Source of the DNA: Pseudomonadota bacterium
GTDB lineage: Bacteria; Desulfobacterota; Desulfobulbia; Desulfobulbales; SURF-16
Length of the DNA: 32,734 bases
Assembly: GCA_018816555.1 (NCBI GenBank)
Contig: JAHIVT010000127.1
Coordinates: forward strand, 1-32,734
Direction of reading: 5' to 3'
The translations under genes and the position numbers were made by a program. Numbering within the stretch: the first letter of the stretch is position 1; the number at the start of each line of letters is the position of its first letter. Positions 11,755-32,242 of the stretch are shown here, in pieces. The notes below the pieces were generated by a model. It did not search any database and was not told the origin of the DNA. It worked only from the letters and a program-made list of their open reading frames with translations.

Positions 11755-12444
11755 TCAACCCTTCTTTGATTTTTTCCTGGCATACCCGGCAAGTCCGGCA
11801 AGGCCGGTGCCAAAAAGGAACATGGTGGCAGGTTCCGGAACCGGGGTGGCAACGTCAAAACATCCTTCTAGGTTGACGTTGGTGATGCCAATGGTTTTGT
11901 TCCCCAAAGTACTTAGTCCGGTCAGGGTTACTGTGATTGTATAATCATTGTCGACTATATCGTACTCATCAGAGACCGAGCCACCTTGAACTCCCCAATC
12001 ATAGAGGCGAATGGGGTCATTCCAGTTTTTAATTTCTTTGTCATTTACTTCCAGTTTTATATACGTCGATGTAGGGAAACTACCGGTACCACCACCACTG
12101 GAAAAATTATTCGGGTCTATTCGCAACGTCACATAGTGAAGATCGTAAAGCGGGTTGTATGAGCCCGTGTAATCCGCCGTAGTGACATCAGGAGTTGTCT
12201 CGCCGGGTATGGAAGTGGGTGAATCAAGTTCCCAGAGGTACATAGAGTCGTCTGTTAGGTCAAATGTCCACGTCCATGTGTCAGAGGAACCAATTTTTAC
12301 AATGTTGTCCTCACTTATTACTGGACTATTTATATCTGTACTTACATGTGCAAGATCAACGTACTGAATATGGGTGGCCTGGGCCGGGGAGTAAAGCATT
12401 CCGGTAAATAAAAGAAAAGCTGCTCCTGTGATACAACGATTCAT
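11755..12444 (-). CDS. PEP-CTERM sorting-domain protein
   Basis: 229 residues. The start is set at 12444 because GAGGAGG lies 6-7 nt upstream; an in-frame ATG at 12465 would swallow this site. An N-terminal signal peptide (MNRCITGAAF..., cleavage near AQA|TH) leads to a beta-rich, Asp/Thr/Tyr-rich secreted domain. The C-terminus is a textbook PEP-CTERM tail: VPEPATMFLFGTGLAGLAGY and then ARKKSKKG, that is the Pro-Glu-Pro box, a hydrophobic helix and a basic end, recognised by exosortase (EpsH) for processing and surface display or exopolysaccharide association. No exosortase gene is in this window. The promoter region has a sigma-54 signature (12516-12530) and a palindrome (12656-12679). The central domain is not one I recognise. 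Confidence 0.92.
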   Translation of the reverse strand: MNRCITGAAFLLFTGMLYSPAQATHIQYVDLAHVSTDINSPVISEDNIVKIGSSDTWTWTFDLTDDSMYLWELDSPTSIPGETTPDVTTADYTGSYNPLYDLHYVTLRIDPNNFSSGGGTGSFPTSTYIKLEVNDKEIKNWNDPIRLYDWGVQGGSVSDEYDIVDNDYTITVTLTGLSTLGNKTIGITNVNLEGCFDVATPVPEPATMFLFGTGLAGLAGYARKKSKKG

Positions 12445-12515
12445 GTTTCTCCTCCTCAATTTCATTTTCTCAGTTTCATCATCATTTTTTAGACAAAATG
12501 CTGTTGTTTAATTAT

Positions 12516-12530
12516 GCAAATTAAAAGCCA
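12516..12530 (-). promoter_or_regulatory. Sigma-54 (-24/-12) promoter for the PEP-CTERM gene
   Basis: Read on the minus strand the sequence is TGGCTTTTAATTTGC followed by AT. It has the invariant GG and GC dinucleotides 12 bp apart and the flanking TGGC and TTGCA of the RpoN consensus (TGGCAC-N5-TTGC). It lies about 72 nt before the start codon. Known PEP-CTERM genes are often controlled by the PrsK/PrsR system through RpoN, which supports the call. Confidence 0.68.
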
Positions 12531-12655
12531 TTGATACAAATTCTGATACACATAAAAAACTTACACGATTTCAGGTTGTTACAGAATAAAATTACTCAAC
12601 GTGATTGTCGTATTTAGCAAATGTTTGAATTTATATTCATTTTAATGGATATTTT

Positions 12656-12679
12656 GTCCGTTTTTCCGGAAAAACGGAC
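12656..12679. promoter_or_regulatory. 24-bp perfect palindrome, candidate enhancer site
   Basis: The half-site GTCCGTTTTTCC is followed directly by its exact complement, giving 24 bp of perfect dyad symmetry. It lies about 126-149 bp upstream of the -24 element of the PEP-CTERM promoter, the usual distance for a sigma-54 activator binding site, and between that promoter and the terminator of the transglycosylase gene. A second partial copy of its core (ATTCCGGAAA) follows at 12680-12689. As RNA it could form a hairpin, but it has no T-tail. Confidence 0.55.
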
Positions 12680-12776
12680 ATTCCGGAAACCAAAACTTGA
12701 ACCAGCAAAAACCGTCATTCACGAATATCCTGGCTTTTTACAAGAGGGAAAACCATGGCGTACTACAGAAAAAAAG

Positions 12777-12842
12777 AAGGAATTCCATCCGGGCATGGGC
12801 AGCGCATCAGCGCGAACCAACGCCCGGATGGAATTCCTTTTT
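12777..12842 (-). terminator. Bidirectional terminator, 18-bp perfect stem
   Basis: The arms 12777-12794 and 12822-12839 are perfect complements (AAGGAATTCCATCCGGGC and its reverse complement) with a 27-nt loop containing a small GCGC pairing. On the minus strand the stem is followed by a long T-rich tract (TTCTTTTTTTC), as expected for the end of the lytic transglycosylase gene that stops at 12861. In the plus direction it has T5. The rest of 12445-12860 holds only the sigma-54 promoter and palindrome. Confidence 0.8.
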
Positions 12843-12860
12843 GAAAGGAGAAAACTTGTT

Positions 12861-14738
12861 TTACGGAGACTCGTCAACAGCGATATCGCAGACGGATAGG
12901 TCTACTGTTCCTCCGGCCTCGATGCCCTGATAGATCGACCAGAACCTTTCATCAACCCGTTTTTCCCGGGAAGTGCTGCCCGGTTTCATAAACCGCCTGG
13001 CAGCACGGGGACCGGCATTATACACTGAGTAGGTTGATCGTGGCGCGTAACCGGGGTCGCCATTTTTAGCGGCAACGGCCATACCGTGTTGTTGCAGATA
13101 ATGCATGAGAATCTGGGAACCCGCCCGGATATTGTAAGGAATCTCCCAGCGCAGCCGCTCCAGGTTATAGAAGCCGCGCCAGACATGCTGATTGATCTGC
13201 ATGATGCCGATGCTGCCGGCAGTGGAACGCAGGTAGGTGACCTGATCTCCATCTGCCACGAACTGCCGCCAGCAGCTTTCAATCAGGGCGGTGGACGGCA
13301 CCAGATGCTGAAAAATCTCTGTATAGAGAGGGTCGAGATTATTGCGTTTTATCTCCTCATCCGCAGCAGATTGCAGGAGCATTCCGATCTGTTGCCGGTA
13401 TTCTTCCAGCTCTTCGGAACGAGGAACCCAGCGATCCAGTGACCGGCTCAATGGGACCTCTTCGGCATAAACCATCGGCAAAAGAAAGTTCCAAAGACGC
13501 TGACTGAGCGGCAACGGTGATTGTGAAGGATCAGCGTCAGGGACAGGTTCGGGTGCCGGTTCGGGTGCAAATTGAAAAAGCTCCCGTAGGACGGGATCAA
13601 CTTGCCAGTCAAAATTGAGCGGGTCTACGTTGCCTCCCGGCTGCAGCGTTCGGGCCAGCCGGCGCAGGCCGTCCGTGGTGATCTGCATGCCGAGTCGCGG
13701 CGCTGCAGCATCCAGGGCAAGCAGGGCTTCGCCGGCGTTGACAAAAGTCATGTAACGGAGCGGTTGCTGCTGGATCAGGCCACGCTCTTCAGCCTCTTCT
13801 ATGATCGACCGCATCTGACGCCAGGCATCGACAAACAGGGTTCGCAAGGGATCACCGCTCTCAAGCGAGACCTCGCCGGCCAGAATCGGCAGCAGTTGAT
13901 ACCGGCTGGAAATGAGAAGATCAAACAGCTGCTCGCGCATTTTGGCATCGACAAAATCGCCCCCGGCGCTCTTAATGACAAAAACAAGAAATGCATCCCA
14001 GGGCTCCAGTACCTTCTGAAAACCCTCAATCTCGGTAGAGTCAAGTGGTGCCTGGGCAGCCAAAGGCATCTCGGCAGCTGGCGGACTGTCCGGGAGGCTG
14101 AGCAGCAACGGCACCACGATGCCGTTGACATCAATGCGCAGCGTGCCGATCACAATCGAATTCAAGGCGGCATCGACCTGTTCCATCTCTGCGGGTGATG
14201 CACAAGCCCTGAGAAAAGCAAGAATCTCCTGCTGGGGGGGCTTGAGATCAAGAGAAAAATCCTCCAGCCGGGGATGGAGAAATCGCTTGGCAAGGTTCCA
14301 GACAAAGCCGGATATCATCGGCCTCGCGCCGGCATTATCGTAAATAATCGAATCAACTATATGATAGCGCAACTGCCACTTCTCATCCACGTATGGAGAA
14401 AGAGTCATATCGATGGAGCCGTTCCATTTCAGAGCCACAGGCCATATGCCCAGTAATTTGAAGCCCAGATTGGCGGAAATACGGGTTGAGAAGTGCGGCT
14501 GGCTGTCACGGATATACAGCCGCGGCTGGTCTGAATGCAGATAACGGTAAGGCCCTTCCTGATAAAGAACCGCAGGCTTGTCAACTTGAGGATTCAGATA
14601 CCTGGCGATTGAGTAATGCAGAAGTGATGTTCGCAACGTGAGCGGCACTTCAATCGTGGTGGCTGCCGACAACCTCGACGGTGTAGTCAACAGGCAAAGC
14701 AAAATTGAGCAGACAAGCAAGCAACTCCTGACGATCAT
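12861..14738 (-). CDS. Large periplasmic lytic transglycosylase (C-terminal SLT domain)
   Basis: 625 residues from the ATG at 14738, preceded by GGGAG at 7-8 nt; an ATG six codons further out has no such site. A signal peptide (MIVRSCLLVCSILLCLL..., cleavage near LSA|A) is followed by a long N-terminal region without clear similarity (about 30-395), a Pro/Glu/Ala-rich linker near 400-415, and the SLT domain at about 470-610. The catalytic Glu is in ALIESCWRQF (near 487), then GSIGIMQINQHVW (near 514) and YSVYNAGPRAARRF (near 574), the standard family 1 motifs. It cleaves the MurNAc-GlcNAc bond of peptidoglycan. The very large N-terminal region is unusual for the family and could be a partner-binding domain. 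It is monocistronic, ending in the terminator at 12777-12842. Confidence 0.92.
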   Translation of the reverse strand: MIVRSCLLVCSILLCLLTTPSRLSAATTIEVPLTLRTSLLHYSIARYLNPQVDKPAVLYQEGPYRYLHSDQPRLYIRDSQPHFSTRISANLGFKLLGIWPVALKWNGSIDMTLSPYVDEKWQLRYHIVDSIIYDNAGARPMISGFVWNLAKRFLHPRLEDFSLDLKPPQQEILAFLRACASPAEMEQVDAALNSIVIGTLRIDVNGIVVPLLLSLPDSPPAAEMPLAAQAPLDSTEIEGFQKVLEPWDAFLVFVIKSAGGDFVDAKMREQLFDLLISSRYQLLPILAGEVSLESGDPLRTLFVDAWRQMRSIIEEAEERGLIQQQPLRYMTFVNAGEALLALDAAAPRLGMQITTDGLRRLARTLQPGGNVDPLNFDWQVDPVLRELFQFAPEPAPEPVPDADPSQSPLPLSQRLWNFLLPMVYAEEVPLSRSLDRWVPRSEELEEYRQQIGMLLQSAADEEIKRNNLDPLYTEIFQHLVPSTALIESCWRQFVADGDQVTYLRSTAGSIGIMQINQHVWRGFYNLERLRWEIPYNIRAGSQILMHYLQQHGMAVAAKNGDPGYAPRSTYSVYNAGPRAARRFMKPGSTSREKRVDERFWSIYQGIEAGGTVDLSVCDIAVDESP

Positions 14739-15223
14739 GGTCTGCTCCCATGGCACATTATGTTCTTATGGTCTAATAATTGTTGCATAAATGGGTTACG
14801 TAAAATTGAGATTACAAAGAAATTGGAGATAACTGAGATCTTTTAACGGATAGGTCGCTGCCGGTCCGGTCTTCCGGTTTCGGACAGGGAACAAATCAAA
14901 TGGGTCATGAGATATAATTGTTATTGAGCACCGTAAAAAGCGGGAACCCGCTCAGCCCCTACTATAGACAAACGCCTTCCCGCTGTCAATCTTTCCGATA
15001 AAATGTCAGGGTCAGGAAGAGAACCATTTGACAATTTTACTTTTTTTTCACATATGTATCGATGAAGATCTTTTCACCGATCATGCTGCATTCCAGGCGC
15101 CCTGCTCAATGATTATCCGGAAGGCATCTCTGCGTGCCTGCCTTTGCTGTTTTTCAGATATCGCTATGTAACAGTTAAATTGTTTCATATATCCTAAAAT
15201 TTAACCAACAGAGGTGAAACGAA
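14739..15223. other. Intergenic region between divergent genes; no gene seen
   Basis: These 485 bases separate the minus-strand transglycosylase from the plus-strand DsrE gene and must hold both promoters. There is no supported frame longer than about 20 codons. The clearest structure is the repeated complementarity at 14939-14984. GAGGTGAAACGAA at the right end is the DsrE ribosome-binding site. I cannot place either promoter with confidence. Confidence 0.5.
14939..14984 (-). promoter_or_regulatory. Inverted repeat with two alternative pairings, T-tailed on the minus strand
   Basis: AGCGGGAA (14939-14946) is the exact complement of TTCCCGCT (14977-14984), and its first six bases are also complementary to CCCGCT at 14947-14952. 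On the minus strand, which leads to the transglycosylase about 200 nt away, the structure ends in TTCCCGCTTTTTA. It looks like a terminator or attenuator whose 3' arm can pair with either of two 5' arms. There is no evidence that a transcript passes through it. Confidence 0.35.
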
Positions 15224-23045: not shown

Positions 23046-23067
23046 ATATAAACAAATTTGTTTATAT
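23046..23067. promoter_or_regulatory. 22-bp perfect palindrome, candidate operator of the sdh/frd operon
   Basis: The half-site ATATAAACAAA is followed by its exact complement. The element lies 48 bp before the sdhC ATG and overlaps a -10-like TATTAT. It does not match FNR/CRP (TTGAT-N4-ATCAA), HcpR or Rex consensus sites, so the binding protein is unknown. Confidence 0.6.
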
Positions 23068-31825: not shown

Positions 31826-32242
31826 TCAGGCATTATTCATGCTGCTGCGCCGGGCGAAAACCAGCCCTGCAACACCGGAGCCCAACAGCAGAATTGTACC
31901 GGGAACCGGTACGGCTGGCCCTGCACCGGATTGTTCGACATGCTGTACCATCCACGTTGGTGTATCATCACCATGATATGAATAAGCAGATGGGAAAAAG
32001 AAATCATCTGCCCAAGCTTCTCTGCCCCTGTCTGCCGCTTGACCATGAGAAACTATGCCCAGGGAATCTTCCTGGTCAAGGTAACTATCGCCTGTCAAAG
32101 CAAATATGCCGCCGGCATGACCGTATCCTTTCACACTGGATGTCAAGTCGCCCATCTCATGCCCACCCGGTACACCGGCGGCCATAACACTGCCGACACT
32201 GAGTAATACACTCAATACTGTTGTTAAAATGATCTTTTTCAT
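31826..32242 (-). CDS. Small PEP-CTERM-like exported protein with variant sorting signal
   Basis: 138 residues. A signal peptide (MKKIILTTVLSVLLSVGSVM, cleavage near MAA|G) precedes a Gly/His/Asp-rich mature region of only about 85 residues with no domain I recognise. The C-terminal tail is VPVPGTILLLGSGVAGLVFA followed by a basic RR: same layout as PEP-CTERM (box, hydrophobic helix, basic end), but the Pro-Glu-Pro box is Pro-Val-Pro-Gly. Such PxPGT variants are common in Desulfobacterota. It should be processed by an exosortase located elsewhere. AGGGGGCAG lies just before the ATG. Its stop is 23 bp from the PhoH gene stop. Confidence 0.88.
   Translation of the reverse strand: MKKIILTTVLSVLLSVGSVMAAGVPGGHEMGDLTSSVKGYGHAGGIFALTGDSYLDQEDSLGIVSHGQAADRGREAWADDFFFPSAYSYHGDDTPTWMVQHVEQSGAGPAVPVPGTILLLGSGVAGLVFARRSSMNNA

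Follow-up and report, generated by a model that had tools for sequence, protein, structure and literature searches.

Proteins of the PEP-CTERM/exosortase type are widespread among environmental bacteria that form biofilms. Sigma-54 activators are already known to control proteobacterial PEP-CTERM genes (PMC1569441; PMC9850573). In the PrsK/PrsR system (TIGR02916/TIGR02915), a sigma-54 box precedes single PEP-CTERM genes, and a dyad-type activator site, which may be repeated, lies upstream of it (PMC1569441). Motif 1 of Haft et al. (2006), which is tied to PrsR, ends in TTTACA and is separated from motif 2, the sigma-54 box, by 62.8 nt on average; this enhancer precedes 99 of 167 proteobacterial PEP-CTERM genes (PMC1569441). 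The RpoN1-dependent pepA of Aquincola tertiaricarbonis is likewise a PEP-CTERM gene with a -24/-12 promoter, and its dependence on RpoN was shown by experiment (PMC9850573). The locus described here resembles both systems in having a sigma-54-type box before a PEP-CTERM gene, and the former in having a repeated dyad-type upstream site, but the core of this site is TTTCCGGAAA. It further differs from the A. tertiaricarbonis case in that the genome of the latter carries prsK and prsR, and the relevant passages report a previously predicted enhancer with no mention of a CCGG site (PMC9850573). A literature search, in which sequence-string matches were checked in part and by title, retrieved no publication with a TTTCCGGAAA site at PEP-CTERM genes, and excerpts from a study of the sigma-54 regulome of D. 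vulgaris (PMC4641369) mention neither PEP-CTERM nor CCGGAA.

The window, meaning the whole stretch of 32,734 nt that was analyzed, belongs to a 4.93-Mb genome that is 97.14% complete (G000) and encodes RpoN (447.2 bits against a cut-off of 277.35) as well as exosortase (TIGR02602, 187.5 bits at C151 and 120.1 bits at C76, cut-off 105.55). The PEP-CTERM gene of interest, P0001 (11755-12444, minus strand), encodes 229 aa with a signal-peptide-like start and a VPEPATMFLFGTGLAGLAGYARKK C terminus, and its C-terminal PEP-CTERM domain exceeds the curated cut-offs of both TIGR02595 (24 bits against 16) and PF07589 (32 bits against 20.7). A Shine-Dalgarno-like sequence, GAGGAGGAG (12449-12457, minus strand), precedes it and has the same letters in the congener G001, whose protein is 76% identical to P0001. 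The upstream neighbor (12861-14756, minus strand) encodes 631 aa without a Pfam or NCBIfam match at an E value of ≤0.001 in profile searches. Between the two genes, an inverted repeat with 26-nt arms that are 88% complementary, followed by a T-rich stretch on the minus strand (12774-12842), probably terminates transcription of the upstream gene and would mark the upstream border of the control region; it falls below the loop limits of the terminator scan. By its criteria, the scan of 12400-12900 detected neither a terminator-like site nor a sigma-70-like promoter, and both were rejected as alternative explanations. A second PEP-CTERM-like C terminus, of the VPVPGT type (21.1 bits), is present in a 148-aa open frame elsewhere in the window (31847-31912, minus strand); the 320 bases upstream of that frame contain no GG/GC-type sigma-54 box.

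Upstream of P0001, a box of the form TGGC-N7-TTGC lies on the minus strand at 12530-12516, and the sigma-54-type element with -24/-12 spacing that the original prediction had placed before the PEP-CTERM gene is thus borne out. Transcription would be expected to start near 12504. The box alone is unremarkable, since the window contains three TGGC-N7-TTGC matches against 2.35 expected, and it fits 9 of 13 consensus positions. Further upstream, a palindrome scan identified a perfect 26-bp dyad, TGTCCGTTTTTCC/GGAAAAACGGACA (12655-12680), as the putative main enhancer site, with the core TTTCCGGAAA at 12663-12672. The original prediction had described the palindrome as perfect, although at a length of 24 bp rather than 26 bp, and its stated distance of 126 bp is right (12656 minus 12530), the gap between the box and the 26-mer being 124 bases. 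It is the longest perfect palindrome in the window and exceeds chance expectation, as 100 dinucleotide shuffles with up to three mismatches allowed gave no match. The next longest perfect palindrome in the window, ATATAAACAAATTTGTTTATAT, spans 22 bp (23046-23067). A putative second enhancer copy, TTTCCGGAAT, which had not been mentioned in the original prediction, lies on the minus strand at 12689-12680, its center 17 bp upstream of that of the first.

Alignment with G001 delimited the conserved portion of this region. Identity was 20 to 25 of 25 positions in every block from 12676 to 12454, 18 of 25 at 12701-12677, which contains the second copy, 13 of 25 at 12726-12702, and 16 to 21 of 25 per block further upstream; the control region is thus conserved from the second CCGG copy down to the start codon. 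TTTTCCGGAA, TCCGTTTTTCCGG and the box are kept in the congener, the second copy is unchanged, and within the box GG and GC are retained, a single change falling between them. In the right arm of the palindrome, two positions have changed with no matching change in the left arm. The half-site GTCCGTTTTTCC, which had been put forward as a marker for finding the regulon, therefore fails in the orthologue, where the outer arms change without compensation, and it fails across the genome as well: with up to three mismatches, the 24-mer occurs at a single place in the 4.93 Mb, which for that sequence is the outcome that the original prediction had named as refuting it. Because of this single occurrence, GTCCGTTTTTCC/GGAAAAACGGAC marks no regulon, and the full palindrome and its half-site were both rejected in that role.

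To identify shorter recurring elements, the regions upstream of 14 PEP-CTERM matches of the same genome and 22 PEP-CTERM genes of relatives were compared, the latter set being reached after L057 (a repeat of L005 from the same genome) was omitted and L050 was dropped for want of a start codon. Palindromes were enumerated over 34 regions, leaving out the window gene (L006) and its orthologue (L040). Start codons were picked by Shine-Dalgarno score and some upstream regions may be misplaced, as was that of L009, whose site sits further upstream. Within one mismatch, TTTCCGGAAA was found in 18 of the 34 regions, ranking first of 1,024 palindromic 10-mers, with the next best at 7; across 500 dinucleotide shuffles the best count of any palindrome was 15, and that of TTTCCGGAAA itself was at most 6. 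The signal came mainly from the relatives (15 of 21 regions). Without the window gene, the genome itself yielded TTTCCGGAAA in 3 of 13 regions, tied with several AT-rich palindromes, and with two mismatches allowed in 10 of 13 regions versus at most 8 in 300 shuffles. Exact TTTCCGGAAA alone was not enriched genome-wide (23 places versus 24 for the reversed control), and most of the first 15 such loci viewed lay within long open frames.

A collection of 49 sites gave the consensus TTTTCCGGAAAA, with a weaker G at +13 and A at +15. These sites lie 85 to 168 nt from the box, as opposed to about 62.8 nt for the PrsR-linked motif, and because they were picked by one mismatch and a distance of 85 to 190 nt, the distances partly reflect selection. 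A second dyad within one mismatch accompanied 12 of the 49 sites, always 17 to 22 bp on within a searched range of 12 to 39 bp; this spacing is close to two helical turns and would suit tandem activator sites on one face of the DNA. The putative transferable unit is TTTTCCGGAAAA, with YGGA as a weak addition toward the promoter. The palindrome thus contains an element that recurs upstream of the sigma-54 boxes of other PEP-CTERM genes, which upholds the proposed enhancer in part, without the activator and half-site that had been assigned to it. From these comparisons, it is highly probable that the CCGG element is an enhancer for sigma-54 promoters. That the palindrome is instead unrelated to the promoter and serves as a terminator, a mobile repeat or a repressor operator would agree with a perfect dyad able to form a hairpin and with operators often being perfect dyads; yet no terminator-like site was found in 12400-12900, one genomic copy means that there is no repeat family, and the core recurs at set distances from the sigma-54 boxes of non-orthologous genes, making this explanation very improbable.

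Composite searches joined the putative enhancer to a promoter. Among 38 genomes, the relaxed pattern TTTCCGGA-N101..161-TGGC-N8-TGCW gave 81 matches versus 12 for the reversed control, several of the 81 lying plainly within coding sequence. The strict pattern TTTTCCGGAA-N102..130-TGGCAY-N6-TGCW, which leaves out the window promoter with its TGGCTT, gave 16 matches, spread over 14 of 257 genomes, and none for the reversed control; the 16 are not all independent, as L081/L282 and L269/L270 are congeneric pairs. Eight precede PEP-CTERM genes above the curated cut-off (L271, L273 to L277, L281 and L282) and a ninth, L081, precedes one just below it. The remainder comprised a protein with a signal-peptide-like start (L278), a 140-aa frame (L283), a frame that appeared LysR-like by eye (L272), and four matches with no clear gene behind them (L269, L270, L279 and L280).

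Several loci have features of their own. At L269 (G050:C61) and L270 (G033:C49), a strong tandem site and box without a clear gene are followed, about 60 to 160 nt downstream of the box, by a stretch conserved between both genomes, GATGACGGTAACGCTGGACTCCTTGGTC..TTGCAATGAGGCCAATTAGTC, which may be a small RNA driven by sigma-54; Rfam gave no match on six loci that have sites and lack a clear gene. At L283/L096 (G000:C131) and L104 (G004:C29), a site and a TGGCACGC-GGTTGCT box lie about 290 to 300 nt before the conserved 140-aa frame, which has no Pfam match. The boxes before the PEP-CTERM genes of L208, L204 and L291 have TGT in place of TGC at -12 and possibly represent a variant promoter class. 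At L097 (G000:C7:17500-20700), a site and box precede a dockerin-like gene, with a second gene encoding a VPIPGAV C terminus (L015) close behind; the two are perhaps an operon of the regulon.

The activator named in the original prediction was PrsR, acting with PrsK through the palindrome, in line with the published control of proteobacterial PEP-CTERM genes, including the RpoN1-dependent pepA. PrsR was not found above its cut-off in the genome, where the best TIGR02915 match reached 409 of 502.6 bits, and PrsK (TIGR02916) gave no match at an E value of ≤1e-30 among the 22 of 149 candidates scored. TTTACA was absent from 32 to 92 nt upstream of the box at the window promoter. Across 31 PEP-CTERM regions with a box (at least 9 of 13 positions), a CCGG site at 80 to 190 nt was present in 19 and TTTACA at 32 to 92 nt in one, L058, a PrsK neighbor in G007. 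PrsK loci were examined in eight genomes, six with PrsK above its cut-off and two below, and four of the eight showed a PEP-CTERM gene with a candidate box. Three of these genes (in G007, G015 and G002) lack a CCGG site and have TTTACA at a distance of 61 nt from the box, and the fourth (in G012, where PrsK is below the cut-off) has neither; TTTACA was also seen near a few other boxes at PrsK loci, without a gene. With neither protein found at these thresholds, TTTACA missing and a different site at PrsK-linked genes, PrsR was rejected as the activator, and control of P0001 by PrsK/PrsR through the palindrome is regarded as extremely unlikely.

A more suitable candidate reader of the TTTCCGGAAA sites is encoded elsewhere in the genome, about 10 kb from an exosortase gene in a polysaccharide/exosortase region. 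P0002 (G000:C151:62727-64220) has a PAS domain, a sigma-54 activation domain (PF00158, 226.3 bits) with GAFTGA in its translation, and a Fis-type helix-turn-helix (HTH_8, PF02954, 37.2 bits). Its best NCBIfam and PDB matches are enhancer-binding proteins of the NifA/NorR/NtrC kind, with which it shares the AAA+ activation domain, the GAFTGA loop and the Fis-type helix-turn-helix; it is unlike them in that its NCBIfam matches, among those listed, are all below their cut-offs, and its N terminus holds a PAS domain and gave no match to a receiver domain. The gene lies behind nucleotide-sugar genes and is followed by a PilZ gene and, in convergent orientation, a PEP-CTERM gene. This PEP-CTERM gene, about 1 kb from P0002, has a TTTCCGGAAT site 151 nt ahead of its box, which is the strongest one (TTGGCACGACAAATGCT). 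The PilZ-domain gene (L094:8458-9018) directly follows P0002, hinting at a link to c-di-GMP.

Orthologues of P0002 were identified in 23 of 38 relatives, one each (E value of ≤1e-90), and in 112 of 257 genomes of the order (E value of ≤1e-130). In a named collection, where the search reaches close relatives only, 24 loci matched P0002 at 59 to 97%, with titles that included Desulfurivibrio, Desulfobulbaceae, Desulfocapsa, Desulforhopalus and Desulfogranum japonicum DSM 18378 (L208); over part of the protein, the remaining 56 of 80 retained loci matched at 34 to 48%. A credible PEP-CTERM gene was present at 11 of the 24 loci, with a site and box in four (L189, L190, L191 and L193), a site and a deviating box in two (L197 and L208), and no site within one mismatch in five. 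The 56 weaker loci contained one composite match, which did not precede a PEP-CTERM gene. Across the order, P0002 was found in 12 of the 14 genomes with a strict composite versus 100 of the 243 others (Fisher P = 0.0012, kinship ignored), so that 100 of the 112 P0002-bearing genomes are without a strict composite. Among P0002 orthologues, conservation is lower in the helix-turn-helix (0.72) than in the AAA+ domain (0.85); at the C-terminal end, (V/I/M)GKT(G/A)(L/F)Y(D/E)K was present in all 24 rows compared, and 8 of the last 25 positions were invariant.

P0002 is most likely the activator of the TTTCCGGAAA sites among the candidates, as suggested by gene order and co-occurrence, and provided that the CCGG enhancer is real, we consider with good confidence that P0002 reads it. 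It is unlikely, though the strongest of the alternatives, that the enhancer is real and read by another enhancer-binding protein of the genome. That reading would accommodate the 38 enhancer-binding-type (TIGR02915-like) matches in the genome, among whose enhancer-binding proteins the co-occurrence analysis covered P0002 alone, and the site-bearing genomes that show no P0002: sites occur in G010 and G034 and a strict composite in G050 and G015, the last two having congeners with P0002. Against it stands the conserved order of P0002, site-bearing PEP-CTERM genes and exosortase. All parts taken together, we think it reasonably probable that the region upstream of P0001 is a sigma-54 control region whose tandem TTTCCGGAAA dyads are read most likely by P0002 and not by PrsR.

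Sequence comparison shows that the site recurs, that it stands upstream of sigma-54-type boxes, that it differs from the PrsR motif and how the genes are ordered. From this we infer binding, activation, looping, an activator and its signal, as follows. RpoN polymerase would wait in a closed complex at 12530-12516, and P0002 or a similar enhancer-binding protein would bind the tandem TTTCCGGAAA dyads at 12655-12689, some 130 to 150 bp upstream. The bound activator would loop to the promoter and open it by ATP hydrolysis, and the PAS sensor of P0002 may provide a one-component signal input. The product of the promoter would be a surface protein sorted by exosortase, and the TTTCCGGAAA site would serve other PEP-CTERM genes and some other genes for secreted proteins in this and related genomes.

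The two types of site are distributed differently among related genomes. In the genus g1, G002 has PrsK/PrsR (PrsR at 563.9 of 502.6 bits) and TTTACA, with no P0002 orthologue found in a genome that is 88% complete, whereas in G000, G001, G003, G004 and G005 P0002 is present and PrsK does not reach the cut-off, which looks like a swap of regulator. G007 has both PrsK/PrsR and P0002 and both types of site, on different PEP-CTERM genes. It is somewhat more probable than its opposite that Desulfobulbales-type bacteria possess a second, PrsKR-independent sigma-54 system for PEP-CTERM genes, one that partly replaces PrsK/PrsR and coexists with it in at least one genome. Its parts would be a tandem TTTCCGGAAA enhancer and, reading it, a PAS-type single-component activator whose gene is linked to that of a PilZ protein and to the exosortase region. 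This would be a case of related genomes using two different activator codes for one gene class. With a second enhancer sequence and a named candidate activator, the rest of the PEP-CTERM regulon would become predictable and testable. In short, TTTCCGGAAA would represent a short DNA switch that recurs before surface-protein genes of sulfur-cycling bacteria, with a regulator that is probably not the known one.
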